Shown in pieces: positions 15,447-57,982 of a DNA stretch of 64,000 nt. Where the stretch lies: positions 6,133-70,132 of the forward strand of contig JACPKQ010000005.1 of the NCBI GenBank assembly GCA_016186995.1. The letters run 5' to 3'. The notes under the pieces are model-generated. The model searched no databases, was not told the DNA's origin, and saw only the letters and a program-made list of their open reading frames with translations. Each line of letters starts with the position of its first letter. Position 1 is the first letter of the stretch. This stretch comes from Deltaproteobacteria bacterium (lineage in GTDB: Bacteria; Bdellovibrionota; JACOXK01). Made by a program: the position numbers and the translations under genes.

Positions 15447-17135
15447 CTATAAATGTTCTTTCCGGCTTTGATAGGCAAGATGAATGTGTGAAAGCTTTTT
15501 AAGAAGGTTAAGATAAGTGAGCTCTATTTTCTTCTTACTTTCAAGTTCAATATCAAAAAGACATTGAATATCTAACAACTTTAACTCTCCTTTCACAAGA
15601 CCTCTGTAAAGACGATCCCCAATTCGATATCCTAAAATACGAGCCACTTCCCCAATCAGAAAATCTGTTTTCAAAATCTTAGTAGCTATTGTTGTATGCT
15701 GTCCCGTTTTTAAAAATTCTTCTCCACTGTGTACAAACTCGACTGCTGCTTTATACAGTTCTAACTTTTGTTCTTCTTTAAGATTCTGTGTTTTACCTTC
15801 ACAATTCTGTATAAATTCTTTTAAATCAATGATTTTATCTGACTTTCTTTTTGGATTTACAATTTTTGATCCTAAAAAACCAAGTGCATGAAGAAAAATA
15901 TGCGCATAAAAATTATGCTCTCCAGAAAAAACAAACTCTTTACTATGTGATTTTTGAAAATAAATATATTGTGTTACTTGCTCAACAGCATCATTAATAC
16001 TTAAGTCAGATAAATAAATAATATTCTCGCGTGGAATAAATAAACTTCTTCCTCTTTGAAGTGTTTTTTCAATCCATTTTTTTTCTTTTTTGGAAAGCCC
16101 TGAAAGAGAATTTAAAAAATCAAGATCTTCAAGTGTATAAACAGAAAAATCATCTTTATCTTTTAAATCAAAATCTAAAAACTGACTCACAATTTTAATA
16201 TATTTAAAAATTTGGTCATTGTAATCAATGATATCTTTCTCAGTATCAAAATGTGCCCAAAAAGAACTCATTTGCGGCCTTAAAGCATCAGCCTTTTCTT
16301 GCCAATGAAGATAGGATTGAAGTTTCACCCAAGGGGTGGCATTAATAATGCAGTAAGCATCATCTTTAAGTCTAACAACATCAACATCATGTTCTAAACC
16401 TCTTTTAGCTAGCTTCCAATAAATAGTTTCACTATTTTGATAAATAATAAGTCTTTTTCTGTTAAGTTTAAGCGTTTTAAGTTTCTCTTCAACTCTTTTG
16501 GGTAAGTGTTTTGAGGCAAGATGTAAATCTCCAAAAATAACATAAATAAGATGTTCTGGGTATTTCTGTGTTAAATTTATAATAATTTTAGATGCAAACT
16601 CATCTCTTCTCTCAAGCACTGTACGATCATCTGCCTCTAAGGTTCCATGAATAGGTGTGCTGTTTAAAGCTATAATTTTTAGTGAATGTAATTTTGCAAA
16701 ATCAAAAAGAGGTTTAAAATTATTCCAGTCAAAGCCCCAATTTTTTTTATAATCTGTTTTTTGAAGAAGCTCTTTTTCAGTTATTTTATTATTTAAATAA
16801 TCATTAATATATTGTTGATGAGAACTTAAGAAAAACTCAACGCCCAAAATGATATTTTTTTTCTTCTGAATAATCTCACGAAGAATTCTTAAAACGATTC
16901 TTTGAGATTGATCAAATGTATGATAATCACCACTATAAATAATATGTGATTTTAAAATATTTTTGAGTAATTCTTTTTTGCCCGAAATAGCTTGGATCTG
17001 TTTAAACTCATTCTTATATTCATGATAATAAGATTTTAAAGATAAGGGAATAGTTTTAAGATGCGTTAAAGCTTCTTCCTTAAGCCCTTCTAATATTTTC
17101 TTCTGAATTTTAAGGAGTTTAATCCTTTGATTCAT
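15447..17135 (-). CDS. ChaN-like haem-binding-domain protein
   Basis: 562 residues. Residues about 60-270 match the ChaN/Cofac_haem_bdg family: a SGDYHTFDQSQ motif like the family's 'GE.HD', then ILGVEFF and the VIFGDLHLA segment. ChaN proteins are iron-regulated and can bind haem. This one has no signal peptide or lipobox and carries a long helical C-terminal region of unknown role, so haem uptake should not be assumed. A weak nCCGATAA-like motif (GTCGATAA, 17154-17161 on the minus strand) lies upstream. Confidence 0.65.
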   Translation of the reverse strand: MNQRIKLLKIQKKILEGLKEEALTHLKTIPLSLKSYYHEYKNEFKQIQAISGKKELLKNILKSHIIYSGDYHTFDQSQRIVLRILREIIQKKKNIILGVEFFLSSHQQYINDYLNNKITEKELLQKTDYKKNWGFDWNNFKPLFDFAKLHSLKIIALNSTPIHGTLEADDRTVLERRDEFASKIIINLTQKYPEHLIYVIFGDLHLASKHLPKRVEEKLKTLKLNRKRLIIYQNSETIYWKLAKRGLEHDVDVVRLKDDAYCIINATPWVKLQSYLHWQEKADALRPQMSSFWAHFDTEKDIIDYNDQIFKYIKIVSQFLDFDLKDKDDFSVYTLEDLDFLNSLSGLSKKEKKWIEKTLQRGRSLFIPRENIIYLSDLSINDAVEQVTQYIYFQKSHSKEFVFSGEHNFYAHIFLHALGFLGSKIVNPKRKSDKIIDLKEFIQNCEGKTQNLKEEQKLELYKAAVEFVHSGEEFLKTGQHTTIATKILKTDFLIGEVARILGYRIGDRLYRGLVKGELKLLDIQCLFDIELESKKKIELTYLNLLKKLSHIHLAYQSRKEHL

Positions 17136-17177
17136 AAAACACCTTTTTCTGGCTTATCGACAGTTCAAGGATACAGC

Positions 17178-17206
17178 TTGAAGTTTTTCAAACTATTAGA
17201 TACTTT
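17178..17206 (+). promoter_or_regulatory. Sigma70-type promoter giving a near-leaderless transcript
   Basis: TTGAAG (17178-17183), 17 bp, TACTTT (17201-17206). The expected start is about 17213, 2-3 nt before the ATG at 17216, and there is no Shine-Dalgarno. Confidence 0.55.
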
Positions 17207-19370: not shown

Positions 19371-19398
19371 TAAAAGATTTTAAAGAAGTGTCCGATAA
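19371..19398 (+). promoter_or_regulatory. FliA/sigma28-like promoter upstream of lon
   Basis: TAAAAGAT (19371-19378), 12 bp, TCCGATAA (19391-19398), close to the sigma28 consensus TAAAGTTT-N11-GCCGATAA. The ATG is 19 bp further on with GAGGGA as ribosome site. Confidence 0.5.
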
Positions 19399-19417: not shown

Positions 19418-21781
19418 ATGCCACAAAGTAAGAAGCTTCCAGTTCTTCCAGTGATGAGTACAGTTGTTTTTCCCTATGCTATTATTCAACTTCTCATTCG
19501 ACTTGATAAAAACAAGAAAATTTTCAAAGACTGTCAGGAAGGTGATCTTCTCTGCGTTGTAGCACCTCAAGATACCAATAAAGAAGATTTACAAGTCGAA
19601 GATCTGCACTCGTTTGGAGTCAAGGCTAAAATTTTAGATATTGTAGAGGCCGGGCATGATTCTTTACAAGTTGTCATTCAAGGAATGGAACGTGTTCGTA
19701 TTAAAAAATTTGTGCAGGAAACTCCCTACTTTATTGCTGAAGTTGAAGCGCTTGAATTACCTCAATTTGAATTTGATACTGAAACTCAATCATTACAAAA
19801 TGAACTTCTTACTACTTTTAATCGTTTTCTTTTTGCCAATCCAAAATACAGTGCTGAAATGGGTCGCATTGTTGAAACAAAAATAGATGAAGGCCCAGGT
19901 GTCATCTGTGATCTTATCAGTTCTTATATTAATTTTAATCTTCAGGATAAACAAATAGTTCTTGAAAGTTTAGATATCAAAAAAAGAATCAAAAAAGTTA
20001 TTGATCTTCTTAACAAAGAGCTCGAGTTCTCTAAACTTGAAGAAAATATCCAAGATAAAGCCCGCGAAGACATTGCTAAATCTCAAAAAGAATACTTTTT
20101 AAGAAAACAAATGGACCAAATTAAAAAAGAGCTTGGGGAAGTGGAATCAGGAAGCCCAGATATTATGGAGCTTAAAGAAAAAGCGAGAAAAAAGAACTTC
20201 CCTCAAGAAATAAAACAAGTAGTTGATAAAGAAATAGAACGACTCCAAGACATTCACCCTTCAGCAGCTGATTATAATATTATTCGTAACTATCTTGATT
20301 GGTTCATCACCCTTCCTTGGAGTGAAAGAACATCTGATAACCTTAACATTAAAGAAGTTAAAAAAATTCTTGATGAAGATCACTATGGTCTTGAAGAAGT
20401 TAAGGAAAGAATTTTAGAATATCTTGCAGTGCTTAAACTTAAAAAAGATCTTAAAGGCCCTATCCTCTGTTTAGCAGGCCCTCCAGGGGTAGGAAAAACA
20501 TCTTTAGGAAAATCGATTGCACGCGCCATGGGAAGAAGTTTTGTGAGAATTTCTTTAGGGGGTGTTCGAGATGAAGCAGAAATCAGAGGACATAGAAGAA
20601 CCTATGTAGGAGCGCTGCCTGGAAGAATTATACATGGAATGAAAAAAGCAGCAACTATCAATCCTCTTTTTATGATCGATGAAATCGATAAAATCAGCTC
20701 TGAACGAGGGGACCCGGCTTCAGCACTTTTAGAGGTTCTTGATCCAGAACAAAATAACACATTCCGAGATAATTTTCTTGAAGTGCCTTATAATCTTCAA
20801 CAAGTGATGTTCGTCTGTACTGCAAATTATCTTGAAAACGTACCAGCACCCCTTCGAGATAGAATGGAAATTATTCACCTTCCTGGCTACACCCAAGAAG
20901 AAAAGTTGTTTATTGCTAAAGACCACCTCATTCCAAATCAAATTGAAGCCCATGGACTTAAAAATATTCACATTCAATTTCAAAAATCAGGAATACAAGA
21001 AGTGATCATGCACTACACAAGAGAAGCAGGAGTTCGAAATCTCAACCGAGAAATTGCCAATATTTGTAGAAAAGTTGCTAAAAAAATTGCGCAAGCAACG
21101 AAAGAAACTCATAAATATAATGTCACAAAAACTAAGGTTTCAAAATACCTTGGCCCTAAAAAATACATACCTGAAGAACCTCTTATTAGAAAAGATGAGT
21201 GCGGAGTTGCTATTGGTCTTGCCTGGACTCCAGTGGGGGGAGAGCTTCTGACTATTGAAGCAACTCATGTTTATTACCCAAGAAAAGAAGCCTTTAAAAT
21301 TACAGGTCTTCTAGGAGATGTCATGCAAGAGTCTGTTCAAGCAGCCATTACATTTGTAAGATCAAAAGCAGCTGAACTGGGTATTGATCGAAGTGTCTTT
21401 GTAGATAGTCTTATTCATATTCACTTTCCAGCAGGCGCTATTCCTAAAGATGGTCCTTCAGCAGGGATTACCGTTGCAACAGCTGTTGCCTCACTTTTAA
21501 GTAATCGCCCTGTCAAGGAAAGCATTGCCATGACAGGTGAAATCTCTTTAAGAGGACATATCTTGCCTGTAGGTGGTATTAAAGAAAAAGTTCTTGCTGC
21601 TTACAGAGCAGGTATTAAAACTGTGTACCTTCCTAAGAAAAACGAAGTGGATCTTAAAGGACTTCCTAAAGAAGTAAGAAAAAATATGGAGTTCCACTGT
21701 GTTGATAATGCCATGGATGTTTTAAAAGAAATACTTACAGAACCCCTACCTCACAGACAAAAACAAACTGCTTTAGCTTAA
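19418..21781 (+). CDS. lon: ATP-dependent protease Lon
   Basis: 787 residues, full length. The N-terminal substrate-binding domain (1-200) is followed by a coiled-coil linker, an AAA+ domain with Walker [10 protein letters not shown] (about 354) and Walker B FMIDEID, and an S16 protease domain with the Ser in KDGPSAG (about 681) and the Lys in [10 protein letters not shown] (about 724). It degrades misfolded and regulatory proteins in the cytosol. A FliA-like promoter upstream suggests motility- or stage-linked expression rather than only heat shock. Confidence 0.97.
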
Positions 21782-41175: not shown

Positions 41176-41227
41176 AAAATAAGCTAACTTATTAAAATAA
41201 CTAAAGTTTTACTGGTGACAGAAGACT

Positions 41228-41254
41228 TAAGTTAATATAAAAACTCACCGATAA
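41228..41254 (+). promoter_or_regulatory. FliA-like promoter of the glutamate dehydrogenase operon
   Basis: TAAGTTAA (41228-41235), exactly 11 bp, ACCGATAA (41247-41254). AAGGTGG precedes the ATG at 41292. Confidence 0.55.
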
Positions 41255-41291: not shown

Positions 41292-42578
41292 ATGGGGCCA
41301 GTTGGACACGATCTTACAAAATCTGAATGGGAAGGCTCAGATCTTTTTAGAAATACCTCAAAACTTTTTGTACATGCTACCCAACAAATGCATCTTGATC
41401 CTAACATTATTGAAAGATTGAAATGGCCTAAACGAGCTTTCGTTGTTTCAGTTCCTATACGCCTAGATGATAACTCCATTCGAACTTTTATTGGTTACAG
41501 AGTTCAACATAATATGACATTAGGTCCTGCAAAGGGTGGAGTTCGTTATCATCCTGATGTTAATCTTTCTGAAACAACTGCTCTTGCCATGCTTATGACT
41601 TTTAAATGCGCTGTTGTTGGTTTACCTTTAGGTGGAGCCAAAGGCGGCATTCGTTGCGATCCTACAAAAATGAGTCGCAATGAATTACAACGTCTGACTC
41701 GACGCTATACCTCAGAAATTGCACATCTCATTGGCCCTACTAAAGACATTCCTGCTCCCGATATTGGCACAGATCAACAAACAATGGCTTGGATGATGGA
41801 TACCTTCAGCCAAGAAATTGGATTTACTGTTCCTGATGTTGTCACTGGTAAACCTATTGAGATAGGCGGTTCTCTGGGAAGAACCGATGCAACAGGAAGA
41901 GGTGTTGTTTACTGTATTATGGAAGCCGCTAAGTATTTAGATATGCCTCTTGATGAAACCACCACAGTTGTCGTTCAAGGTTTTGGTAAAGTTGGCGCTT
42001 CTGCAGCACGTAAAATGGCAAAGATTGGGTGTAAAGTTATTGCTATTAGTGATGTTGCTGGTGGTATTTGTAACAGCAAAGGTCTTGATTTAGATGCACT
42101 CTGTGATTACATCGAGAAAAATAAAACAAGCGAAGGTTTTACAGAAGGTGATCGTGTCACTAATGAAGAACTTTTAGAGCTTCAGTGCGACATTCTTATT
42201 CCAGCTGCGGTGAGCAACCAAATTACAAAGCACAATGCTGATAAGATCAAATGTAAAATAATTGCTGAAGGTGCTAACGGTCCTACCAATATTGACGCTG
42301 ATCTCATCATTAATGACAAAAATATTTTTGTCATTCCAGATATTGTAGCCAATGCTGGAGGGGTTACCGTCTCATACTTTGAATGGGTTCAAGGAATTCA
42401 AAAACTTTTTTGGAGTGAAAAAGAAGTCAATAACCGTCTTTGGAATATTATGAGTGATACTTTTAGAAGAGTTGTTCACACTGCTGAAGAACATAAAATA
42501 GATATGAGAACAGCTGCTTATATTTCTGGGATCAGCAAGCTTTCAAGAGCCATGCTATTGAGAGGTTTTTGGCCATGA
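41292..42578 (+). CDS. Glutamate dehydrogenase (Glu/Leu/Phe/Val family)
   Basis: 428 residues. Catalyses reversible oxidative deamination of glutamate to 2-oxoglutarate and ammonia. The substrate-site motifs GPAKGGVRYHPDV and LPLGGAKGGIRCDP (catalytic Lys) and the Rossmann motif VVQGFGKVGASAA are intact; length is typical. The 3' end overlaps the DUF3047 gene by 10 bp. A FliA-like promoter precedes it, which would link amino-acid oxidation to a growth-stage programme. Confidence 0.93.
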   Translation: MGPVGHDLTKSEWEGSDLFRNTSKLFVHATQQMHLDPNIIERLKWPKRAFVVSVPIRLDDNSIRTFIGYRVQHNMTLGPAKGGVRYHPDVNLSETTALAMLMTFKCAVVGLPLGGAKGGIRCDPTKMSRNELQRLTRRYTSEIAHLIGPTKDIPAPDIGTDQQTMAWMMDTFSQEIGFTVPDVVTGKPIEIGGSLGRTDATGRGVVYCIMEAAKYLDMPLDETTTVVVQGFGKVGASAARKMAKIGCKVIAISDVAGGICNSKGLDLDALCDYIEKNKTSEGFTEGDRVTNEELLELQCDILIPAAVSNQITKHNADKIKCKIIAEGANGPTNIDADLIINDKNIFVIPDIVANAGGVTVSYFEWVQGIQKLFWSEKEVNNRLWNIMSDTFRRVVHTAEEHKIDMRTAAYISGISKLSRAMLLRGFWP

Positions 42579-44290: not shown

Positions 44291-45322
44291 TTAATAAGAA
44301 GCAATGATTTTTGGGCACAAGTGTTCTTGATACTTTCTCAAAGCATAGAGATCTGTCATGCCTGCAATATAATCACAAACCAATTGATGCTTATCATCTT
44401 TTTCATTACTAAAATTTTTTGCCTCTTTGAGAAGAATATCCTCATTCTTGAGATAAAATTCATGAAGCTCTCTCAGCATCTTACAGGCTTTAACAAATTC
44501 ACCCCGATTGATAGGATTTTCATACACATTATCGAACATAAAAGCCCTCAACTGATCAATAGCATCTAAAATATCTCCGCTTACAGAAAGTGTTTTTTCT
44601 TCATGTTGTGATGTTTGCACAACTACATCTGTAATCATCTTTGTAATTCTTTGTGAAGCCGTATCACCTATAAACTTCATGATTTCACGAGGTAATTGAT
44701 CTTTTCTTAAAACTCCCACTCGAAGTGCATCGTCAATATCATGATTAAGATAGGCAATAATGTCTGCAATCCTAACCACCTGGCCTTCAAGAGTAGAGGC
44801 CTTATATTGTGGGTCATGTGATAAAAGTGGACCTTTCCCTTTGGAATGCTTCATAATACCTTCTTTAACTTCCCACGTTAAATTGAGCATTTCAGTTGTC
44901 TCGGCAATTCTGACTCCATGCCTTTCATGACGAAAACCTTGTGGATGCAGCTCACCTAAAGTATCCTCTCCAGCATGTCCGAAGGGGGTGTGCCCAATAT
45001 CATGTCCAATGGCAATGGCTTCTGTAAGCATTTCATTAAGGTGCAGAGCTCTTGCAATGGTTCTTGCTATTTGCATAACTTCTAACGTGTGTGTCATCCG
45101 GGTTCGATAATGATCCCCTTCTGGAGCAAGAAATACTTGAGTTTTTCCTTTAAGCCTTCTAAAAGCTTTAGAGTAAAGAATTTTATCACGATCTTTTTGA
45201 AAGCTTGTTCTTAAAGAGCAAGATTCTTCTTCCTCTTTACGACCTTTTGTATCTGTACTGAAACAAGCCCTTTTAGAAAAAATCTTTCTCTCATTTTCTT
45301 CTAAAATTTTTCGAATTGTCAT
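44291..45322 (-). CDS. dGTPase-like HD-domain deoxynucleoside triphosphohydrolase
   Basis: 343 residues. The HD signature is present: H in YRTRMTHTLEVMQIAR, then AIGHDIGHTPFGHAGE, and the distal D in RIADIIAYLNHDIDDA. The family hydrolyses dNTPs (dGTP first) to nucleoside and triphosphate and helps keep dNTP pools balanced. The ATG overlaps the stop of the small FlgM-like ORF (ATGA), so the genes are coupled. Confidence 0.9.
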   Translation of the reverse strand: MTIRKILEENERKIFSKRACFSTDTKGRKEEEESCSLRTSFQKDRDKILYSKAFRRLKGKTQVFLAPEGDHYRTRMTHTLEVMQIARTIARALHLNEMLTEAIAIGHDIGHTPFGHAGEDTLGELHPQGFRHERHGVRIAETTEMLNLTWEVKEGIMKHSKGKGPLLSHDPQYKASTLEGQVVRIADIIAYLNHDIDDALRVGVLRKDQLPREIMKFIGDTASQRITKMITDVVVQTSQHEEKTLSVSGDILDAIDQLRAFMFDNVYENPINRGEFVKACKMLRELHEFYLKNEDILLKEAKNFSNEKDDKHQLVCDYIAGMTDLYALRKYQEHLCPKIIASY

Positions 45323-45474
45323 TTTAGATCCTTAATATTCGTTTTAATAATAGCTTCACTTATTTTTGTACTATCAATTTTGTAAATGCCTTTTTTTATC
45401 TGCTTTTTAATTTTTTGGATTTTTTTCTTTCTTAATTTATCTTTTTGAGAGGGGGTTCCCGAGTGACTTCCCAT
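45319..45474 (-). CDS. FlgM-like anti-sigma28 factor, 51 residues
   Basis: A 51-codon ORF between LAB_N and dgt. The sequence from about residue 15 (RKKKIQKIKKQIKKGIYKID, then STKISEAIIK) follows the conserved C-terminal region of FlgM position by position: IK..I..G.YK.D..KI...II. FlgM holds the flagellar sigma factor FliA inactive until it is exported; only the sigma-binding part is present here. It starts 1 bp after the LAB_N stop and overlaps dgt by 4 bp. Best explained as a short FlgM homologue; an unrelated basic peptide is possible. Confidence 0.65.
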   Translation of the reverse strand: MGSHSGTPSQKDKLRKKKIQKIKKQIKKGIYKIDSTKISEAIIKTNIKDLK

Positions 45475-45475
45475 A

Positions 45476-45787
45476 TTAGCAAACCGAACTTGTTGTTCGT
45501 TCCCCCGATTTCAAAAGACGATCCTTCTTCCAAATGAGATAGATATTTCGTAAATAAATAAAAAGCCCTAAACCTTGCCCCACAATAAAAACAGGATCTT
45601 TTCTGTGAAGAGCATAAATAAATAAAAGAAGCCCTCCCGAAAAACTAAAATGCCAAAAAACAGTAGGAATAACACTTTCACCCTTTTTTTCAGAAACAAC
45701 CCATTGAACGAGAAAACGCATAAAAAAAAGGGATTGTGCTACAAAACCCAATATCAGCCAAAAATCTAAATGAAAGTGAGCAAACAT
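45476..45787 (-). CDS. Lipid-A-disaccharide synthase N-terminal-like (LAB_N) membrane protein
   Basis: 103 residues with three membrane helices. The LAB_N features FMRFLVQWVVSEKKGESVIP and FWHFSFSGGLLLFIYALHRKDPVFIVGQ are clear. Members are stand-alone partners in lipid A or sugar-lipid handling, or small SemiSWEET-like transporters. First gene of a LAB_N/FlgM-like/dgt unit. Confidence 0.87.
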   Translation of the reverse strand: MFAHFHLDFWLILGFVAQSLFFMRFLVQWVVSEKKGESVIPTVFWHFSFSGGLLLFIYALHRKDPVFIVGQGLGLFIYLRNIYLIWKKDRLLKSGERTTSSVC

Positions 45788-45789
45788 TG

Positions 45790-45818
45790 TTCAAACAGTA
45801 TTCTCTCCTCTCTATTAT
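45790..45818 (+). promoter_or_regulatory. Promoter next to the M16 peptidase start
   Basis: TTCAAA (45790-45795), 17 bp, TATTAT (45813-45818), five bases before ATG 45824. This fits a leaderless transcript and argues against the longer ORF start at 45770, which overlaps the divergent LAB_N gene. Confidence 0.4.
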
Positions 45819-45823
45819 TGTCA

Positions 45824-48460
45824 ATGTTCAGAGACGTGTTACTCTTTAAAGATATGCATCTAACTCTTTCTCAGGGTCTTAAAGTTACGGTTGAAGAATC
45901 CCATCGTTCTCCTGTTGTTTCAGCTCAAATTTGGCTTGATGTGGGTAGTTTTCACGAAGGAAAGGGCGAAGAAGGTGTAGCTCATTTTTTTGAACACATG
46001 CTTTTTAAAGGAACTCAACGGAGAAAACTAGGCGAAATAGCACAAGAAGTTGAATCTCATGGTGGAGAAATGAATGCCTATACGAGTTTTGATCAGACGG
46101 TATATTATATCACCATTCCCTCTCGTCACTGGGCATTAGCCCTAGATATATTATCCGATGCAGTCCTTCATCCACTTTTTGATCCACAAGAAATAGAAAA
46201 TGAAAAACTTGTCGTCTTTGAAGAAATGGCAAGATCCCACGACTCTCCTCATGATATGGCAAGTGAACTGTTACTCAAAAACATTTTTCAAAACCACCCT
46301 TATGGTAAACCTATCTTGGGGAAAAAAGAAACAATCCAAAATTTAAATCAGAAAAAACTCATTCAGTTTCATAGAAAATGGTACACACCCAATCGAATGA
46401 CACTTGTTGTAGCAGGCGATGTGAACTCAAAAAATATATTGGCACAAGCCAAAAAACTTTTTTCACATAAAAAAAAATCTCCAATCAAAAAAGACTGGAT
46501 TCCCCGATCAAGTCGGGGGATGACATTTTATTTCCGGGATGACTATTTTAAAAAAAAACTTACCTTTTGTCTTAAACCAGCACATATCCAACTCTCTCAC
46601 TCTCACTTAGCTTTTCTAACTCCACCTGTTGTACACTCAGATATCCCAAAACTTGATCTTTTATCTTCTATTTTGGGACATGGAGAAAGCAGTCGCCTCT
46701 ACGTCGCCACAAAAACGAAGAAAAAATTAACAAGTTCCATTCACTGTGGAATCTATACATTAAAAAAAGCAAGCGTATTTTATATTTCTTCTGTTCACAT
46801 CCCAGAAAATCTTATTCCCCTCACAAGAGAAATTGTTACACAAATCAATAATATCAAATTAGCTCATATCACCCCACAAGAGATAGACATTGCTAAGAAA
46901 AACATCTTAAGTGAAAAAATCTATGAAAAAGAAACAACAGATGGTCTTGCACGTAAGGTAGGCTTTTATGCTACTTATTTTAATAATCCAGGAGAAGAAC
47001 AGAAATATTATGAAAGTATCAAAGATACAACCACTTCAGAACTTAAAGACATAGCTCATAAATATTTAAATCTTTCTCAGTCGACTTTTGTTAATTTATA
47101 TCCTGAAAAATACTCCCCAAAAATAAAAGAATTTAAAAACATGATGAGATCGCCACGGTTTCTTTTGAGAACCCTCGCGATGACAAGAGAAAAAACAACT
47201 CATAAAATAAAACAAAAAAGTATTAAAAAATATGTTTTGAATGGCTTGACCGTCCTTTTTGTTGAAGATCACTCGCTACCTATCATTTCTATGAGAGCAA
47301 CTTTTTTTGGAGGTTCTCTCTATGAAACAAAGCAAAAAATAGGTCTTACACAGGTACTCACCCGTGCCATGACAAAAGAAACTTTGGAAACTTCGCAAAT
47401 AGAGCTCGCTCAAAAAGTAGAAGAAATAGCAGGAAGTTTAGAGGGTTTTAGTGGTAGAAACAGTTCTGGACTCAGCTTAGAATTTTTAAGTGAATATGAA
47501 AACCTAGCACTAGACCTTTTCTTTGAAATCTTACTGCACCCAAAATTCTCTCCTAAAATACTCTCTTATCTCAAAAAACAAACTCTTGAAGAAATAAAGT
47601 ATGAAGAAGATAATCTTGCAAGCAAAGCTTATAATAATTTCCTTAGAAAACTATATCCCCATCATCCTTATGGATATCCACTTAATGGTACTCCACAAAC
47701 AATAACCTCACTAAAAACTAAAAATCTCTTCAAAGCTCATAAAAGCATTTTCATTCAAAATCCTGGAATATTAACTATCGTGGGAAGCTTTTCGGAAGAC
47801 TTTAGAGAAAAAATTATTGAAGCTGCTAAAAAATGGGAGAAAAGAACTAAGCCCCATAAAAAATTTCCTAAAATTCTACCTTTAAAATCAAATCAGGAGC
47901 TTTATGAGCACAAAACTAAAAAACAAGTCAATATTATACTTGGTTTTTTAGGAGCAAAAATTTCGGATCAAGACCGTTACGCTCTACACATACTTTCTAC
48001 AATCCTTTCTGGACAAAGTGGAAGACTTTTTATGAATTTAAGAGATAAAGAAAGTTTAGCTTATTCACTTCATGCAAGTAATATAGAGGGACTTCTACCA
48101 GGACATTTTTATTTTTACCTAGGTACCTCCCCAGAGAAATTAGGAAAAGCTTTAAATCTACTTAAAAAAGAAATTGAAACCCTTAGAAAGGAAAAAATTT
48201 CAAGAACAGAAATAACAAGAGCCAAAAAATATATTATAGGAAAGCATGAAATGAGTTTGCAAAAACTGAGCACCCAAAATGCCTATTATTCTTTTGATGA
48301 ACTTTACGGATTAGGATACGCAGAAACTTTAAATTACCATAAAAAAATTTCTCAGATAACTCAAAAAGATTTAGAAAAAGTGATTCACAAATATCTAAAC
48401 TTAAATTCTTCTATTTTATCTGTTGTAGGCCCTGTAAAGAATAAAACAACTGATAAATAA
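45824..48460 (+). CDS. M16-family zinc metallopeptidase, tandem-domain
   Basis: About 878 residues from ATG 45824. The N-terminal half has the inverted zinc motif HFFEH with the downstream Glu in ENEKLVVFEEM. The second half repeats the M16 fold without an HxxEH and serves as the inactive half of the clamp (as in pitrilysin-like or PqqL-like proteins). No signal peptide is visible from this start. Two palindromic repeats (46499-46521 and 47142-47184) are translated in frame, the latter in the linker between halves. The 3' end overlaps the convergent permease gene by 45 bp. Confidence 0.85.
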   Translation: MFRDVLLFKDMHLTLSQGLKVTVEESHRSPVVSAQIWLDVGSFHEGKGEEGVAHFFEHMLFKGTQRRKLGEIAQEVESHGGEMNAYTSFDQTVYYITIPSRHWALALDILSDAVLHPLFDPQEIENEKLVVFEEMARSHDSPHDMASELLLKNIFQNHPYGKPILGKKETIQNLNQKKLIQFHRKWYTPNRMTLVVAGDVNSKNILAQAKKLFSHKKKSPIKKDWIPRSSRGMTFYFRDDYFKKKLTFCLKPAHIQLSHSHLAFLTPPVVHSDIPKLDLLSSILGHGESSRLYVATKTKKKLTSSIHCGIYTLKKASVFYISSVHIPENLIPLTREIVTQINNIKLAHITPQEIDIAKKNILSEKIYEKETTDGLARKVGFYATYFNNPGEEQKYYESIKDTTTSELKDIAHKYLNLSQSTFVNLYPEKYSPKIKEFKNMMRSPRFLLRTLAMTREKTTHKIKQKSIKKYVLNGLTVLFVEDHSLPIISMRATFFGGSLYETKQKIGLTQVLTRAMTKETLETSQIELAQKVEEIAGSLEGFSGRNSSGLSLEFLSEYENLALDLFFEILLHPKFSPKILSYLKKQTLEEIKYEEDNLASKAYNNFLRKLYPHHPYGYPLNGTPQTITSLKTKNLFKAHKSIFIQNPGILTIVGSFSEDFREKIIEAAKKWEKRTKPHKKFPKILPLKSNQELYEHKTKKQVNIILGFLGAKISDQDRYALHILSTILSGQSGRLFMNLRDKESLAYSLHASNIEGLLPGHFYFYLGTSPEKLGKALNLLKKEIETLRKEKISRTEITRAKKYIIGKHEMSLQKLSTQNAYYSFDELYGLGYAETLNYHKKISQITQKDLEKVIHKYLNLNSSILSVVGPVKNKTTDK
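46499..46521. repeat. Palindromic repeat inside the M16 peptidase gene
   Basis: ATTCCCCGA, short loop, TCGGGGGAT followed by GACATT, and a second TTTCCGGGATGAC end. Translated in frame (residues about 226-243). Confidence 0.8.
47142..47184. repeat. Palindromic repeat in the inter-domain linker of the M16 gene
   Basis: GATGAGATCGCCACGG to CCTCGCGATGACAAG, the same subfamily as the purL and BaiN-like insertions; translated in frame (MMRSPRFLLRTLAMTR). Confidence 0.8.
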
Positions 48461-49852: not shown

Positions 49853-50009
49853 GTAAACCATGTCCCCTGGCAAATATGTTCACTATGTCCCTGTTGCCAC
49901 ACTGGTTTCGTAACACAACGCATGGTATAATAGGGAAAGGCGAGTGAGAAGGTATCGTTTTTTCCAGTATTACTCCATAACATCTTGTAATTGCTACGTT
50001 TTTTAAATT

Positions 50010-50036
50010 TAACTTTGTGCCTAGGTCTGCCGAAAA
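50010..50036 (+). promoter_or_regulatory. FliA-like promoter of the exported-protein/metalloprotease operon
   Basis: TAACTTTG (50010-50017), exactly 11 bp, GCCGAAAA (50029-50036; one mismatch to the consensus GCCGATAA). The ATG is at 50056 after GAGAGGGG. Confidence 0.45.
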
Positions 50037-50055: not shown

Positions 50056-50715
50056 ATGTCGGGTTTTTTTAGATCTTTCTTTTTTTCTACATTCATACTG
50101 GCACTAGGGCTTCAAGGCTCTATTTTTAGCCTTAATACCAAAGAAAAGCTTTCAGAAATCGGCACACGTCATAATACACTCATTGTTAAAGTAAAACTCA
50201 TCAAAGCAGAATCTAAGTGGGAAGGCTCCCAGGTTATCACCTATTGGAAAGCACAATCTCTTGAAGATTCTATCAATAAAGCCCCCTCTTCACTTATAGG
50301 AAGCAATAAAGAATTTGAGTTTACCTCACAAGGTGGCATTCCAAACGAAGCCCCTACCGATCCAAAACTTTCAGGTTGTGGAAAAGAACCTCATAATCTT
50401 TGCGGACAAGTCGCTTATGGATCAGGAACAGAAGAACTTTTCAAAATGCTTACTATTAATCAAGAAGCCTATATTGTTCTTGAACATAAATCAGGAAAAA
50501 GAACTCCTTTTCATCTTGTTGGCAGTGTGCGAATCGCTCCTATTTCAAGAGACAGCACTACAGGGGAAGAAGTTATCAAATCAGACTTAGAACTCAATGG
50601 CCAGATACAGCAGTTTTCATCTTCTGCTCCTCTATCAATACAGACTCATGATGATTCAGCACGATATAAATTAGGAGACTTTAAGGAAGCTTCAAAAAAA
50701 GCGTTTGGTAAATGA
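50056..50715 (+). CDS. Secreted hypothetical protein
   Basis: 219 residues from ATG 50056, which has a GAGAGGGG site and opens a good signal peptide (FFSTFILALGLQGSIFS). The longer frame from 50017 runs into the promoter region. The mature part is beta-rich with two Cys (GCGKEPHNLCG) that may form a disulfide. It overlaps the metalloprotease gene by 4 bp (ATGA), so it may assist or accompany that protease. Confidence 0.7.
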   Translation: MSGFFRSFFFSTFILALGLQGSIFSLNTKEKLSEIGTRHNTLIVKVKLIKAESKWEGSQVITYWKAQSLEDSINKAPSSLIGSNKEFEFTSQGGIPNEAPTDPKLSGCGKEPHNLCGQVAYGSGTEELFKMLTINQEAYIVLEHKSGKRTPFHLVGSVRIAPISRDSTTGEEVIKSDLELNGQIQQFSSSAPLSIQTHDDSARYKLGDFKEASKKAFGK

Positions 50716-52973
50716 TTAAAAAAACTTTGATTCAATTATTATTCTTTTTACTTCCAGCCTTCTCCTTTGCCTTTCTTCAAGAAAGTTATTGGGCAAATAA
50801 TAATCGGGCCATGCTTTCCTGGGGAGGTGGTTCACAACAAATAACACTTGCCCTGAATATTGCTGGGAACCCCCAAACGGTAGACTCACGGGAGTTTTCA
50901 GCCTTCATTCAAGCTATGAATGCGTGGAATACCCATTTTGGAACCTTTACTAATTTTGCTTTTAAAGCAGTCACCACATCACAAAAAACGCTCGATGGAC
51001 TTGATGGGGTCAATAATGTTTTTTTTGAAAATATGGGTGCTGTTTCAACAGTTGCTGAAACACGTTCTACCTTTTTTGTTTCAAATGGAAGAGTTATTGA
51101 TACAGACATACGTTTCAATACTTTTTATATCTATGTATATGGTGATGCCGCAACCGGTTTTTCTCAGATTAATTTAGCTGACGTTGCTACGCACGAATTT
51201 GGTCATGCAGCGGGGCTGGGTCACAGCTCTTTTAAAAACGCAACCATGTATTTCATGGCTCAAGATAAACAACGCTTTCCTACTCATGACGATCTTGCAG
51301 GAATACACACCATTTATCCTGTAGGAAACACCACCACCCTTTCTGGGAAAATACAGAAAGGAAGTGAAAATATTCATGGTGCAGAAATCATAGCTATCCG
51401 CACAGATGAAGGCCCTTGGCAAGGAAAACCTTGGGTTAACGACCTTTCTGACAGAAGTGGAAACTTTAGTATTCGTGGGTTAGACGTACAAGGACAATAC
51501 ATGCTTTTAGCGGTTCCTCTTCATAACCACTCACCCCATGGAAACTATTTTAGTGGATCTCATAATGAAAGTGATTTTGTTGAAAATATTTTAGGAACAA
51601 CTGTTCAAGGCCACCTCATCCCTACCCTTTTTTCAAGCTCTCAGTCAGGACTCAACATTCAAGTTTCTCAAACCGTTTTTCAAGATGATTATGAAAATAA
51701 TGACACTGTAAACACTGCTTTTGACCTCTCTACCCTTTCTTCGAACGCTCTGATTGCAACAGCAGATAAAGTTTCAGACGCTCAAGATTTTTATAAAATA
51801 AGCTTGAATCAAGGAGATAGAATTGATGTAAGCACAACAGCCTTTCAAATACGATCAGGACTTGATCTTGAAATAGAAGTTGGAAAAAAAGTGGGTAGTA
51901 CCTTTAGCAAGATAGAAAGTAACGATGATCATCCCTATGACACAAGAGACAACAAAGACCCTTTTATCTTTCAATTCGAAGCCGCACAAACACAAGATTA
52001 TTACATTCGAGTGAAAGCCAAAAATAATCTTGTAGCTTCTGATTTTCCAGGAAGCAGCTCTGATGGAAAACTTGCATCAAGAATGTATGTTTTTATTTGG
52101 AATCAAAGACAAGCACAAAACGCAAGTGCTGTGGAAGCTCCACTAGGACTTACTTTAGATGAGTTTGATGAAAATACAGGAGCTACTACCATTTCAGTAG
52201 GAAGTAGTGGTTTTTCAGTACTTGAAGCAACACTCAATAAGCTCCTTATTGAAAGTGTAAGCTTGAGTGGAAGTAATATGCTGATCCAACTTCAACCAGG
52301 AATGAATGGTAAAACAAACTTCTTTATTAAAAATGGAACCCTCAATAATACAACCTATAGACAGGTGAAGCTGACTATTAATCCAGTGAACTACACACCT
52401 TTTATTTTTACATCTCAATCACAAACAAGCTTTGATGTTACAAGTGGAGGAAAACTTAATCTTTCTCTTGCAGGCATTGTAGGTGGTGATGATATTGATA
52501 ATTTGGGCGTTAATATTAATGGGGTTATTATAGGAAGAGTCGCAGGCGTTCTTCCTTCACATACGCTTACAGCAACTGCAAGCAATGCTAACGTTAATGT
52601 CAATCTTTCGATCGATGATGGAAGTTATATGCTTCAAGTCAGTGGCCCTGTAGGAGAATCAGCTACCATTGATTTTGAAATTAAAGACAGCCAGGGTAAT
52701 ACCATTGTAACCTCAAATGCAAACTCAAGCGCTGCCTCATCCCCTGGGGTGACTGTCTCTTCCCCTTCCCAAGGAAGTGGTATCATCGTTAATATCGTAG
52801 ATGCTGCAAGGTCTGTTGCAGGTGCGACCGGAGGTGGTTGTGGAACTGTTTTTAATGAGCCTTATCAAGGTAACTTCAACCAGTATTTTAACCTCTTTAT
52901 ATTATTACTTCCCCTGCTCTTTCTCTCAATCTTAAGAAAACTTAAATTGAAGCCGATAAGAACAAAGAAATAA
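50712..52973 (+). CDS. Secreted matrixin-like zinc metalloprotease with PPC domain and C-terminal sorting-like tail
   Basis: 753 residues. A signal peptide (1-18) is followed by a metzincin catalytic domain with HEFGHAAGLGH (about residues 160-170; HExxHxxGxxH) and the Met-turn region. Then come a carboxypeptidase-regulatory-like beta-sandwich (about 205-290), a pre-peptidase C-terminal-like (PPC) domain (DDYENNDTVNTAFDL onward, about 325-430) and further beta-rich repeats. The end is tripartite: a Gly/Cys motif (GGGCGT), a hydrophobic helix and a basic tail, as in GlyGly- or MYXO-CTERM proteins. It is probably an exported, surface-held protease. Confidence 0.8.
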   Translation: MIKKTLIQLLFFLLPAFSFAFLQESYWANNNRAMLSWGGGSQQITLALNIAGNPQTVDSREFSAFIQAMNAWNTHFGTFTNFAFKAVTTSQKTLDGLDGVNNVFFENMGAVSTVAETRSTFFVSNGRVIDTDIRFNTFYIYVYGDAATGFSQINLADVATHEFGHAAGLGHSSFKNATMYFMAQDKQRFPTHDDLAGIHTIYPVGNTTTLSGKIQKGSENIHGAEIIAIRTDEGPWQGKPWVNDLSDRSGNFSIRGLDVQGQYMLLAVPLHNHSPHGNYFSGSHNESDFVENILGTTVQGHLIPTLFSSSQSGLNIQVSQTVFQDDYENNDTVNTAFDLSTLSSNALIATADKVSDAQDFYKISLNQGDRIDVSTTAFQIRSGLDLEIEVGKKVGSTFSKIESNDDHPYDTRDNKDPFIFQFEAAQTQDYYIRVKAKNNLVASDFPGSSSDGKLASRMYVFIWNQRQAQNASAVEAPLGLTLDEFDENTGATTISVGSSGFSVLEATLNKLLIESVSLSGSNMLIQLQPGMNGKTNFFIKNGTLNNTTYRQVKLTINPVNYTPFIFTSQSQTSFDVTSGGKLNLSLAGIVGGDDIDNLGVNINGVIIGRVAGVLPSHTLTATASNANVNVNLSIDDGSYMLQVSGPVGESATIDFEIKDSQGNTIVTSNANSSAASSPGVTVSSPSQGSGIIVNIVDAARSVAGATGGGCGTVFNEPYQGNFNQYFNLFILLLPLLFLSILRKLKLKPIRTKK
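52934..52960 (+). promoter_or_regulatory. FliA-like promoter of the diguanylate cyclase gene
   Basis: TAAGAAAA (52934-52941), exactly 11 bp, GCCGATAA (52953-52960), inside the last codons of the metalloprotease gene. The ATG is at 52987 with AAGTGGAG. Confidence 0.5.
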
Positions 52974-52986
52974 GTGGAGAACTTTT

Positions 52987-54018
52987 ATGTCTACAGAAAA
53001 AAAACTTTTATGTGCTTTAGATACCCTGTCTCTCATTAATTCAACTTTAGATCTTGATGATCTTTTACAAATTGTATTGCGCTCTATTAAACAAGTCATG
53101 GAAGTAGATGCCTCTTCTATGATACTCATGGATTTTGAAACAGGAGAACTTTATTTTTCAAAAACTGAAGGTGGATCCCAAAAAGTACAAGAAATAAGAC
53201 TTAAAATGGGTGAAGGTGTGGCAGGACGTGTTGCTCTCACAGGTGAACCTATGATTGTGAACGATGTTTCTAAAAACCCCTACTTTGCTAAACACATCGA
53301 TGAAGCTACCAAATTTAAAACAAAATCTATTTTAGCTGTACCTCTTAAAATAAAAGGAAAAGTCACAGGAGTTCTTGAAGCCCTCAATAAAGTAGATGGA
53401 ACTCCATTTACAGGTGAAGATCTTCTTATTTTTACAAGCTATGCAAATCAAATTGCGGTTGCACTTGAAAATGCCCGTCTTTACAAAATGGCGGTTTATG
53501 ATGGACTTACAGGTATTTTTGAAAAACAATATTTTCAAATTTGGGCAGAAAGCGAATTTGCAAGAGTCAAAAGATATAAAACAGACCTCTCACTTGTGAT
53601 GTTTGATCTCGATTATTTTAAAGATATTAATGATACCTATGGCCACCGTAGTGGTGATTATGTCTTAAGTGAAGTTGCTAAAACAGTCAAAGAGGCTATC
53701 CGCCGAGCTGATGTCTTTGCACGTTATGGTGGAGAGGAATTTATTATTGCTCTCCCTGAAACAAACATCAATCAAGCTAAAATAATGGCTGAAAAAATTA
53801 GAAAAATTATTGAAACAAAAAAATTTAAGTTTGAAGGAAAAACAATCACACTTACTATAAGCCTGGGTGTTGTAAGCTATGACCACACTCACGAAAATTC
53901 TTTTGAAAGACTTCTTCAAGATGTAGACCAAGCGCTTTATACTTCAAAAGAAAGTGGTCGAAATAAAACAACGGTTTATAGAAAGAAAACCCATCTTAAG
54001 CTTAGAAAATCAGCTTAA
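52987..54018 (+). CDS. GAF-GGDEF diguanylate cyclase
   Basis: 343 residues. An N-terminal GAF sensor (about 15-165) is followed by a GGDEF domain (about 175-335) with an intact active site (YGGEEF) and a product-inhibition I-site (RRAD five residues upstream). It should make cyclic di-GMP in the cytoplasm in response to a small-molecule or redox signal. A FliA-like promoter precedes it. It converges with the adenylate cyclase gene, the two stops being adjacent. Confidence 0.92.
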   Translation: MSTEKKLLCALDTLSLINSTLDLDDLLQIVLRSIKQVMEVDASSMILMDFETGELYFSKTEGGSQKVQEIRLKMGEGVAGRVALTGEPMIVNDVSKNPYFAKHIDEATKFKTKSILAVPLKIKGKVTGVLEALNKVDGTPFTGEDLLIFTSYANQIAVALENARLYKMAVYDGLTGIFEKQYFQIWAESEFARVKRYKTDLSLVMFDLDYFKDINDTYGHRSGDYVLSEVAKTVKEAIRRADVFARYGGEEFIIALPETNINQAKIMAEKIRKIIETKKFKFEGKTITLTISLGVVSYDHTHENSFERLLQDVDQALYTSKESGRNKTTVYRKKTHLKLRKSA

Positions 54019-56133
54019 TCAATCTACCTTGTGAATGGGAAGCCAATCGGGGCCGGGCAAGGAAAGCAATAAATTCTCACAGCGATGCACAAAAATAACT
54101 GTGGGGTGATCTTCAGGCTTAAGTTCCTCAGCATTTTTAAAATGTATAAGAGCTTGTTCAAACTGTTTATTTTCATAAAATTGAAGCGCTTTTTCATATT
54201 CGTAAATAAAATCTTTTTCCAATTCAAATTCAAGAAGACCGGAAGGAATCACTTCATAAATACTCACACCCTGAGTACGTCCCCTTACCTGAACGGTATC
54301 TACTTTTCGAGTAAGTCTTTGGTGTTGAAATTGTTTTTTTGTATCCTGACTTATAAGAAAAGGAATCTTATAAAACTTAGTTGCTTGTTCAATTCGCGAG
54401 GCCAAATTAACAGAATCTCCAATAACTGTGTAATCAAAAACTTTAGAACTTCCCATATTACCTACAAGCATCTCTCCTGTATGGACACCAATACCGATTT
54501 GAATCTCTTTCCAACGCTTTGCTTTCCAATGCTCATTTAAATCTTTAAGCCTTTCAAGCATAGCTAAACCTGTTTTAGCAGCCTGATCAGCATGTGCAGC
54601 ATTGACAATAGGGGCCCCATAAATGACCATGATGGCATCTCCCATATATTTATCAATCAAACCACCCTGTTCAAAAATGACATCACTCATGGCAGACATG
54701 TATTCATTGAGCATTTTAGTAAGTAGCCCTGCAGGGAGCTTTTCTGAAATTTTTGTAAAATCCCTGATATCTGCAAAAAGAACGGTGAGAACTTTTCTTT
54801 CTCCTTTAAGTTTTAATTGTGAAGGATCTCGGATCAGCTCTTCAACAAGTTGAGGTGCAAGATAGTGTTCAAAAGCCTCACGAATGTGGCGGGCTCTTTT
54901 TTCTTCAACAAAATACTTAAATAAAATAGTATTCACAAAAACAACTAAAATATGAAGATAAATAAAAACAGTGTTCGCCACAAAACCTTTTTGAAAAAGA
55001 ATGAATTGATCACAATAGTAAATTAAAAAAAGCACTGTGAGAGTAAAAAGAGCACCCCATAAAGCTCTTAATTTACTTAGGAAAAATCCTAAAATAAATG
55101 CCATGAAAAGAATAAATAAAACTTCAAGAGCAAGAGAGGCTTCGGAACGTTTTAAAAAATTTTGATTAAGAATATTATCAATAATATGAGCATGCACCTC
55201 AACACCCGCCATTTCAGTTGAAAAAGGAGTGTTTCTTAAATCTTGAACTGCTTTGGCAGAAACACCTATTAAAACAATTTTATTTTTTGTCTCTTTTTGA
55301 GAAATTTTATCTCTTAAAAGATCTTGGAAGCTTAAGGTAGTATAGGTTTTCCGGCCTCCACGATAATTAATCAAAAAACGTGCTTGTTCATCAACGGGTA
55401 GCATAACATCATCCAAAAAAATACTTTGAATACCCTCTTTGCTAAGCTTCACACCAATATTTTTTTGAAGATAAACAGATGCTGTTTTTAAAGCAAGGGA
55501 GGGATAAAGTGCTCCACCATATTCTGTCACAAGAAAACCCTTCCGTATCCCTCCATCATAATCAGATGTAAAATCAAAAAAACCATAATGTGATGTTGCA
55601 CTTGCAATAGGGCTTATATTCATCTCAACAGATTGTGCTTTTGATACGTGAGGAAACTGTCCTTCTTGAGAGGAAATAAGAAGATTAATTTTTGAGGGCA
55701 ATTCTTTCTGATTTTCTAGTTTTTTATCAAAATAAAAAAAGTATCCTAAAACAACACGAGAAGTTTGTTTTATTTGAGATGCGAAAGAGAGATCTTCTGC
55801 TTCTTCACTTTTTTCAGAGAAAAGCATATCCAGTGAAATAGTATGAGCCCCTAAAGCACGAAGTTTCTGAATGGCTTTGGCTAAAACACTTCTTTTCCAA
55901 GGCCAGCGCCCTATCTCACGAATACTTTCATCATCGATAGAAACAATGACAATTCTATCATCTGGTTTTTCCTCACCTCTTACCTGAAACTTAGTGTCTA
56001 AAAGTTTAAGCTCTAAATAAGTGAGAAAGGGAAGTTTTTGAGGGGCAACATAATTAATAAACATAAGAAAAAGAACAAACACTGTAAAAAAACAAGTAAT
56101 TTTAGGAACAGACAAAGAAAAAAGTTTTTTCAT
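54019..56133 (-). CDS. CHASE2-domain class III adenylate/guanylate cyclase
   Basis: 704 residues: an N-terminal membrane helix, a periplasmic CHASE2 sensor (about 35-320), three membrane helices (about 330-410), a class III cyclase domain (LTVLFADIRDFT with metal-binding Asp, then the GGLIDKYMGDAIMVIYG segment; about 440-620) and a short TPR-like end. It should make cAMP (possibly cGMP) in response to an external signal. The start overlaps the phosphodiesterase gene by 4 bp. Confidence 0.9.
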   Translation of the reverse strand: MKKLFSLSVPKITCFFTVFVLFLMFINYVAPQKLPFLTYLELKLLDTKFQVRGEEKPDDRIVIVSIDDESIREIGRWPWKRSVLAKAIQKLRALGAHTISLDMLFSEKSEEAEDLSFASQIKQTSRVVLGYFFYFDKKLENQKELPSKINLLISSQEGQFPHVSKAQSVEMNISPIASATSHYGFFDFTSDYDGGIRKGFLVTEYGGALYPSLALKTASVYLQKNIGVKLSKEGIQSIFLDDVMLPVDEQARFLINYRGGRKTYTTLSFQDLLRDKISQKETKNKIVLIGVSAKAVQDLRNTPFSTEMAGVEVHAHIIDNILNQNFLKRSEASLALEVLFILFMAFILGFFLSKLRALWGALFTLTVLFLIYYCDQFILFQKGFVANTVFIYLHILVVFVNTILFKYFVEEKRARHIREAFEHYLAPQLVEELIRDPSQLKLKGERKVLTVLFADIRDFTKISEKLPAGLLTKMLNEYMSAMSDVIFEQGGLIDKYMGDAIMVIYGAPIVNAAHADQAAKTGLAMLERLKDLNEHWKAKRWKEIQIGIGVHTGEMLVGNMGSSKVFDYTVIGDSVNLASRIEQATKFYKIPFLISQDTKKQFQHQRLTRKVDTVQVRGRTQGVSIYEVIPSGLLEFELEKDFIYEYEKALQFYENKQFEQALIHFKNAEELKPEDHPTVIFVHRCENLLLSLPGPDWLPIHKVD

Positions 56134-56915: not shown

Positions 56916-57896
56916 CTACAGCCATTTTTTACGTTTGAAGTAGTAAAGAAGAATAGAAGCGACAAAAGCCATAAAAAACATAACTGATGGAAAACCCCAA
57001 TCTGAATGAAGAAGAGGCATTTTTTTAAAGTTCATACCATAAATACCCACAATCACTGTTAAAGGTAAAAGTACAGCCGCAAATAAAGTAAGTGTGTTCA
57101 TAATTTCAGTTAATTTCTTTGTCGCAATGGAAAGGGAAACATCTAAAATACCCGTTGTCATATCACGATAAAACTCTGTTTGATCCAAAACTCGATCCAT
57201 ATGATCGTACACATTTTTAAAATAAAGAGAACAGCCTGCACAGATGCGATCATATTTTTCCTGATACATTTTATGAATAACTTCTTTTTGATAAAAGAAG
57301 ATGCGGCGAAGACGCATCAACCTTTTTTTAAGTGAAAAAATATCATCCATAATATTTTCTTCACCATGAGTAAAAATTTTATTTTCAATACGATCCAATC
57401 TTTTATCAATTTTATCTAACACGGGTATATACTGATCTACTACTTCATCTAAAATATGATGAAAAAGATATTCTGTATCAACTGCCATAGGAGCCACAAC
57501 TTCTAAAATTTTTTCTTGAAGTTCCCGAATACTCAAGAGAGGATTCTCATGATAAGTCACAAGCATGTTTTCACAAATAAAAGATGAAAGACTTACTGTT
57601 CGAATAGAATCTTCTTCAAGAACACCCCTGTCTTCCATCTTCAAACCATGCACGCGCACATAAAGATAATCTTTATAATCTGTAATCTTTGGAAAAAACC
57701 TTTCACTAAAACAATCTTCAAGTGCGGTAGGGTGAAATTTAAACTTGTTGATGAGTAAATTTTTTTCTTCTTGGGAGGGCTTTAAAAAATCAATCCAAAC
57801 AAGGTAGTTTTTATCATTTAAATAAGCTCCACATTGCTCTAAGTTACTTTTTAAAACCTTAGCCTCTTTTTTAGAATAAACATATACAACAACCAT
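56916..57896 (-). CDS. corA: CorA-family Mg2+/Co2+ transporter
   Basis: 326 residues. A large cytoplasmic N-terminal domain with a long helix is followed by two C-terminal membrane helices with the selectivity motif YGMNF (about residue 284) and a basic tail. It forms a pentameric divalent-cation channel. A CCGATAA motif (TCCGATAA, 57904-57911 on the minus strand) lies seven bases before the start. Confidence 0.92.
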   Translation of the reverse strand: MVVVYVYSKKEAKVLKSNLEQCGAYLNDKNYLVWIDFLKPSQEEKNLLINKFKFHPTALEDCFSERFFPKITDYKDYLYVRVHGLKMEDRGVLEEDSIRTVSLSSFICENMLVTYHENPLLSIRELQEKILEVVAPMAVDTEYLFHHILDEVVDQYIPVLDKIDKRLDRIENKIFTHGEENIMDDIFSLKKRLMRLRRIFFYQKEVIHKMYQEKYDRICAGCSLYFKNVYDHMDRVLDQTEFYRDMTTGILDVSLSIATKKLTEIMNTLTLFAAVLLPLTVIVGIYGMNFKKMPLLHSDWGFPSVMFFMAFVASILLYYFKRKKWL

Positions 57897-57903
57897 AATA
57901 GAC

Positions 57904-57911
57904 TTATCGGA
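57904..57911 (-). promoter_or_regulatory. FliA-like -10 upstream of corA
   Basis: TCCGATAA on the minus strand, 7 bp from the ATG. The -35 is weak (no TAA at the right distance), so this is only a candidate promoter. Confidence 0.35.
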
Positions 57912-57982
57912 AAAATAAAAATTTTACTTGATTAAACAAAACCCATTGACTTTAAAGCACACTTTCGACACATTTAAAAAAA

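Follow-up and report, generated by a model that had tools for sequence, protein, structure and literature searches.

A Probable Repurposed Sigma28/FlgM Switch with a 51-Residue FlgM-Like Protein in an Apparently Non-Flagellate Bacterial Class

FlgM normally restrains FliA (sigma28) until the basal body exports FlgM, and it is the standard example of a regulator governed by its own export through the apparatus under its control. The canonical FliA-FlgM pairs are those of Salmonella, E. coli, and Aquifex (structures 1rp3, 1sc5, and 9wsf). Retention of the two genes in the absence of flagella is already known. In Legionella species without flagella (L. oakridgensis and others of clade III), the flagellar genes were lost and only fliA and flgM were kept, according to PMC5655016, which cites Tlapak et al. 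2017. FlgM is described there as still repressing FliA-dependent genes, and its removal appears to occur by degradation and not by export. Non-flagellate Legionella is the closest known precedent for FliA and FlgM without flagella. In the WhiG-RsiG system of Rubrobacter and Streptomyces, a sigma factor of the flagellar clade has been reused, and its targets include c-di-GMP enzymes (PMC8325347). Chlamydia has no flagella; its sigma28 acts below sigma54 on two target genes only, and no anti-sigma28 is known (PMC10597470).

In this report, we describe a 64,000-nucleotide stretch of DNA (the window; positions 6,133 to 70,132 of contig JACPKQ010000005.1, assembly GCA_016186995.1) from a member of the class JACOXK01 of the Bdellovibrionota that encodes a FlgM-like protein of 51 residues. 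This system shares with the canonical pairs the same two protein families, the C-terminal segment of FlgM, and the promoter type, but it is without the export region, and neither the export apparatus (FlhA) nor flagellar targets were found. As in Legionella, fliA and flgM are retained in the apparent absence of a flagellum. The two differ in that flgM is itself sigma28-dependent in Legionella, whereas the 51-residue core found here shares what looks like a housekeeping operon with dgt; moreover, the class is unrelated, and its fliA is preceded by a sigma54-type promoter and followed by an HD-GYP-type gene. The non-flagellar use of a flagellar-clade sigma factor and the promoter consensus are shared with WhiG-RsiG (PMC8325347), whereas RsiG belongs to another family and needs c-di-GMP, and the anti-sigma factor here is of the FlgM family. 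The likeness to Chlamydia is a sigma28 without flagella that may act below sigma54, the link to sigma54 consisting here of promoter type and activator genes; in contrast, a FlgM-like anti-sigma28 is present here and none is known there (PMC10597470). The class would thus add a further variant to the Legionella case.

The flgM-Like Gene and Its Operon

An open reading frame of 51 codons with an ATG start (translation, MGSHSGTPSQKDKLRKKKIQKIKKQIKKGIYKIDSTKISEAIIKTNIKDLK) was found where the first-pass annotation had placed it (Table 1). That annotation had read the frame as a FlgM-like anti-sigma28 gene without the usual N-terminal export region, and both statements were borne out by the profile searches. 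Pfam FlgM (PF04316), the sole Pfam family found, matched the protein significantly, at 33.7 bits against a cut-off of 25 (E 4.2e-8), with residues 11-44 aligned to positions 23-55 of the 55 in the model. The NCBIfam FlgM equivalog (TIGR03824) gave 32.1 bits, below its cut-off of 40.75, and was matched at positions 62-96 of 98 only; the N-terminal half of FlgM is therefore missing from the protein. Since the protein is lysine-rich (and very basic, with a calculated pI of 10.3), a shuffling test was carried out. An HMM built from the relatives in the other family of the class scored the protein at 18.9 bits, whereas 2000 shuffled sequences of identical composition reached 9.8 at most. Using a profile of this FlgM-like family, the solved FlgM chain 9wsf_B from a FliA-FlgM complex was retrieved with an E value of 2.5e-8. 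The AF2 single-sequence model of the protein has helices at residues 10-28 and 35-50 and a mean pLDDT of 82. A second FlgM was not found in a search of this genome, which is 93% complete and not closed.

The reading frame is a genuine gene. By its predicted sequence its product is FlgM-like, and we call it a minimal and not a canonical FlgM because full-length and export features were looked for and not found. The two retained C-terminal helices would be expected to bind and inhibit FliA, and the protein would constitute a natural minimal FlgM of 51 residues.

One base separates the stop codon of LAB_N from the ATG of flgM, and the stop codon of flgM overlaps the start of dgt (ATGA), so that LAB_N, flgM, and dgt look like one translationally coupled operon. 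The candidate sigma70-like promoter is located approximately 10 nt upstream of the LAB_N start, and no sigma28-type site ahead of the three genes was found among the best matrix sites. FlgM is apparently made from a housekeeping operon with dgt. Elsewhere in the window, the gene for an M16 peptidase carries an in-frame GC-rich palindrome, CCCCGATCAAGTCGGGG (46501-46519), that resembles an inserted palindromic element; the motif recurs near a promoter-pattern match in genome G002 (L204).

Table 1. Positions of the genes and candidate promoters in the window
Feature	Position	Strand	Remarks
flgM-like gene, 51 aa	45319-45474	minus	sigma-binding C-terminal half of anti-sigma28 factor
dgt, dGTP triphosphohydrolase	44291-45322	minus	NCBIfam NF002327, 474 bits (cut-off 393)
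LAB_N domain protein, first gene of apparent operon	45476-45787	minus	PF07578, 108.8 bits
Candidate sigma70-like promoter for LAB_N-flgM-dgt, TTGACA-N16-AATACT	45797-45824	minus	consensus scan, 10/12 matches
Sigma28-type promoter, 20 nt before lon (Lon protease, 19418-21781)	19371-19397	+	best in window, score 21.1; Lon by Pfam
Sigma28-type site before ORF of 219-232 aa (to 50715)	50009-50035	+	rank 2
Sigma28-type promoter before CorA-like transporter (56916-57896)	57905-57931	minus	rank 3; CorA by Pfam
Sigma28-type promoter, 38 nt before glutamate dehydrogenase (41292-42578)	41227-41253	+	rank 4
Sigma28-type site before ChaN/Tiki haem-binding-like gene (15447-17135; PF04187)	17155-17181	minus	rank 5
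Weaker sigma28-type site, 28 nt before GAF-GGDEF diguanylate cyclase (52987-54018)	52932-52958	+	score 13.0; GGDEF 160 bits

Conservation of flgM and Flagellar Markers in the Class

The class was sampled with eight genomes from two families, one of which is estimated to be 100% complete. FlgM was found above the Pfam cut-off in six of the eight. In the sister genome, G001, a frame of 47 codons occupies the same place before dgt; its FlgM-like score of 12.6 bits, compared with 11.6 for the best shuffle, is below the Pfam threshold, and the assignment of this 47-residue copy draws on its position and a weak score only. Neither flgM nor dgt was found in G007 at the thresholds used, and FliA and sigma28-type promoters are present in that genome. 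The FlgM proteins of the relatives are also short (61-84 residues). The gene stands immediately upstream of dgt in six class genomes (G000, G001, G002, G004, G005, and G006), and in G003 the contig ends at this position. The order LAB_N-flgM-dgt, suggested for a check of conservation, held in part: flgM-dgt is conserved, but LAB_N is beside flgM only in the window and was not found there in the other genomes, and in the other family folD occupies the side of flgM opposite dgt. The conserved trio was therefore rejected, and what is common to the class is flgM-dgt only. The first-pass annotation had named a missing profile match and a missing conservation in relatives as outcomes that would count against it, and neither was obtained. 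Outside the class, the 80 closest dgt loci from named genomes had no flgM nearby.

FlhA is essential for flagellar export. Neither FlhA nor the flagellar rod proteins were found in any of the eight class genomes, this genome included, and the statement of the first-pass annotation that the gene lies far from flagellar genes was thus an understatement. On the basis of these two marker families, the class appears to be without flagella, and this is the main point that the annotation did not contain. The flagellum would either have been lost or never have been present. In a sample of the phylum, rod proteins were found in 262 of 290 genomes and FlgM in 267 of 290, so that the class stands out.

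There are 15 genomes in the phylum sample that are rod-negative yet FlgM-positive, six from this class and nine from elsewhere, and the phylum thus contains repeated cases in which FlgM outlasted the rod genes. In seven of the nine outside the class, the gene adjoins csrA and mostly also fliW (recognised by eye, not by profile), which is the usual neighbourhood of flagellar regulation. A weak FlgM beside csrA- and fliW-like genes at the rod-negative phylum loci L166-L169 and L171-L173 suggests repeated loss of the flagellum with the regulators kept. In this class, fliA and flgM are found in non-flagellar neighbourhoods, and no flagellar targets of sigma28 were found, the rod and FlhA genes being undetected in the eight genomes. 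The FliA/FlgM pair is therefore separable from the flagellum, and this raises the question of how the inhibitor is removed.

FliA and Candidate Sigma28-Type Promoters

One FliA, a strong match at 277 bits (cut-off 189.6), was found in this genome, and each of the eight class genomes has one strong copy (265-277 bits). An HD gene directly follows fliA in all eight (L002, L036-L042). In this genome, the product of the HD gene was assigned to HD_5/HD by Pfam, and its motifs read as HD-GYP. The arrangement points to a conserved pairing of sigma28 with c-di-GMP turnover. A sigma54-type promoter (TGGCAY-N5-TTGCT) is located 26-57 nt before fliA in seven of the eight genomes. Sigma54-activator domains are encoded upstream of fliA, immediately so in G002 and at a distance of approximately 8 kb in this genome.

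The pattern TAAAG-N13..15-NCCGATA was matched 69 times in the class, compared with 30 times for the reversed pattern, and all 69 matches were retrieved and examined. Twenty-nine of them are located 5-70 nt before an open reading frame of at least 110 residues, versus 5 of 132 for composition-matched patterns. The extension of the consensus by TTT after TAAAG, which was not part of the search, was found in 12 of the 29 gene-upstream matches and in 3 of the 40 others (p 0.001). An OmpR-type response regulator is an orthologous target in G002, G003, G005, and G007. Other recurring targets are TrkA and a rhodanese (both in G003 and G007), a DHH protein (G005 and G006), and a lipoprotein (G004 and G006). 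In this genome, sigma28-type sites are located ahead of a glutamate dehydrogenase gene, of two histidine kinase genes, and of the lipoprotein-MlaE-MlaF-MlaD operon, which is transcribed divergently from fliA. One of the kinase genes is divergent from a relative of the recurring response regulator, and the site divergent from fliA is also present in G001. Among the targets with a Pfam assignment, genes for signalling, metabolism, transport, and the envelope predominate.

The strict TAAAG...CCGATA pattern has no match in the window, and the sites in Table 1 were obtained from the matrix alone, which was trained on the other seven genomes with this genome excluded. The five best matrix sites are all located 8-38 nt before open reading frames, compared with approximately 4% of random positions. 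Taken singly, the sites of ranks 2-5 do not outscore shuffled sequence, so that their significance as a group comes from their position. The bare GCCGATA motif was dropped as a promoter signal in the window; its four matches are at about the number expected from base composition, and the two-box pattern and the matrix were used instead for this reason. No Pfam family was found for the frame ending at 50715. In G001, the best site for the orthologue of the window glutamate dehydrogenase is likewise immediately ahead of the gene, at an identical spacing (L273:1107-1133). The five sites agree with the FliA-like promoters that had been noted in the window at first pass, and the suggestion made there that the gene could tune a sigma28-type regulon gains support from the strong FliA and the predicted promoters.

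Two further observations concern genes of the window. The glutamate dehydrogenase in Table 1 has a paralogue in this genome (L270) that is 47% identical, and each of the two has a sigma28-type site directly upstream. The GAF-GGDEF gene and a gene for a CHASE2-nucleotide cyclase (54019-56133) are arranged tail to tail.

Alternative Explanations and a Proposed Circuit

The flgM-like gene could be a decaying relic, in which case a nonfunctional FlgM would have been carried along with dgt after loss of the flagellum and FliA would work without it. Consistent with this, the copies of the other family are longer and score higher than those in the window and in the sister genome, and G007 keeps FliA and the promoters with no FlgM match. 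However, the frame is open and scores above the Pfam cut-off in six of the eight genomes, across distances at which dgt is only 56% identical, and the two segments that were retained correspond to the pair of sigma-binding helices. We consider the relic to be unlikely. It is quite improbable that the protein acts on another partner, for example Dgt or a nucleic acid, and that the match to FlgM is a coincidence of lysine-rich helical sequence. The E value of the FlgM match, the 2000 same-composition shuffles that all fell well short, and the clear FlgM relatives at the same pre-dgt place in the other family argue against this explanation, even though the protein is short and very basic (pI 10.3) and its gene overlaps dgt.

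We find it scarcely credible that the gene encodes a normal flagellar FlgM and that the assembly lacks the flagellar genes of a flagellate. At 93% completeness, the genome is not closed, but FlhA and the rod proteins were not found in any of the eight class genomes, including the one estimated to be 100% complete, and the neighbourhoods of fliA and flgM are non-flagellar. A class that is apparently without flagella and keeps the gene for the inhibitor of FliA has probably reused the switch for other functions. The reading that we prefer, and regard as likely, is thus a repurposed sigma28/FlgM switch in which a minimal FlgM and FliA have been kept in a class without a flagellum.

The genes, their synteny, the absence of the two flagellar markers, and the promoter-like sites are directly established. 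From these, we infer the binding and inhibition of FliA, its release, and the effects on transcription. An NtrC-type activator and sigma54 would drive the expression of fliA together with the downstream HD-GYP (c-di-GMP phosphodiesterase-type) gene. FlgM, supplied at a constant level by the dgt operon, would hold FliA inactive and set a threshold. Because there is no flagellar export channel, we propose that FliA would be freed either by titration, when the sigma54-driven output exceeds FlgM, or by proteolysis of FlgM. Free FliA would then direct the transcription of lon, the glutamate dehydrogenase genes, two-component systems, and genes of the envelope and of transport. In E. coli, FliA is shielded from Lon by FlgM (PMC7549644; PMC4295839). 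Since free FliA is degraded by Lon in E. coli, the sigma28-type promoter at lon suggests a negative loop, and FliA-driven expression of lon would provide this feedback. The full rewired cascade, in which sigma54 drives fliA and the c-di-GMP phosphodiesterase-type gene, the dGTPase operon sets the FlgM threshold, Lon closes a loop, and the regulon covers signalling, nitrogen, and envelope genes throughout a class without flagella, might equally well prove right or wrong in its entirety. The predicted non-flagellar sigma28 regulon is directly testable.

A final observation was made with three related genes for short, secreted-looking proteins (L230, L238, and L260 in G004, G005, and G007). Their promoters have a run of approximately 6-9 C immediately before GATA, and the length of the promoter varies, being 25 or 26 bases. 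A C tract of variable length between the promoter boxes could make the expression of these genes phase-variable.
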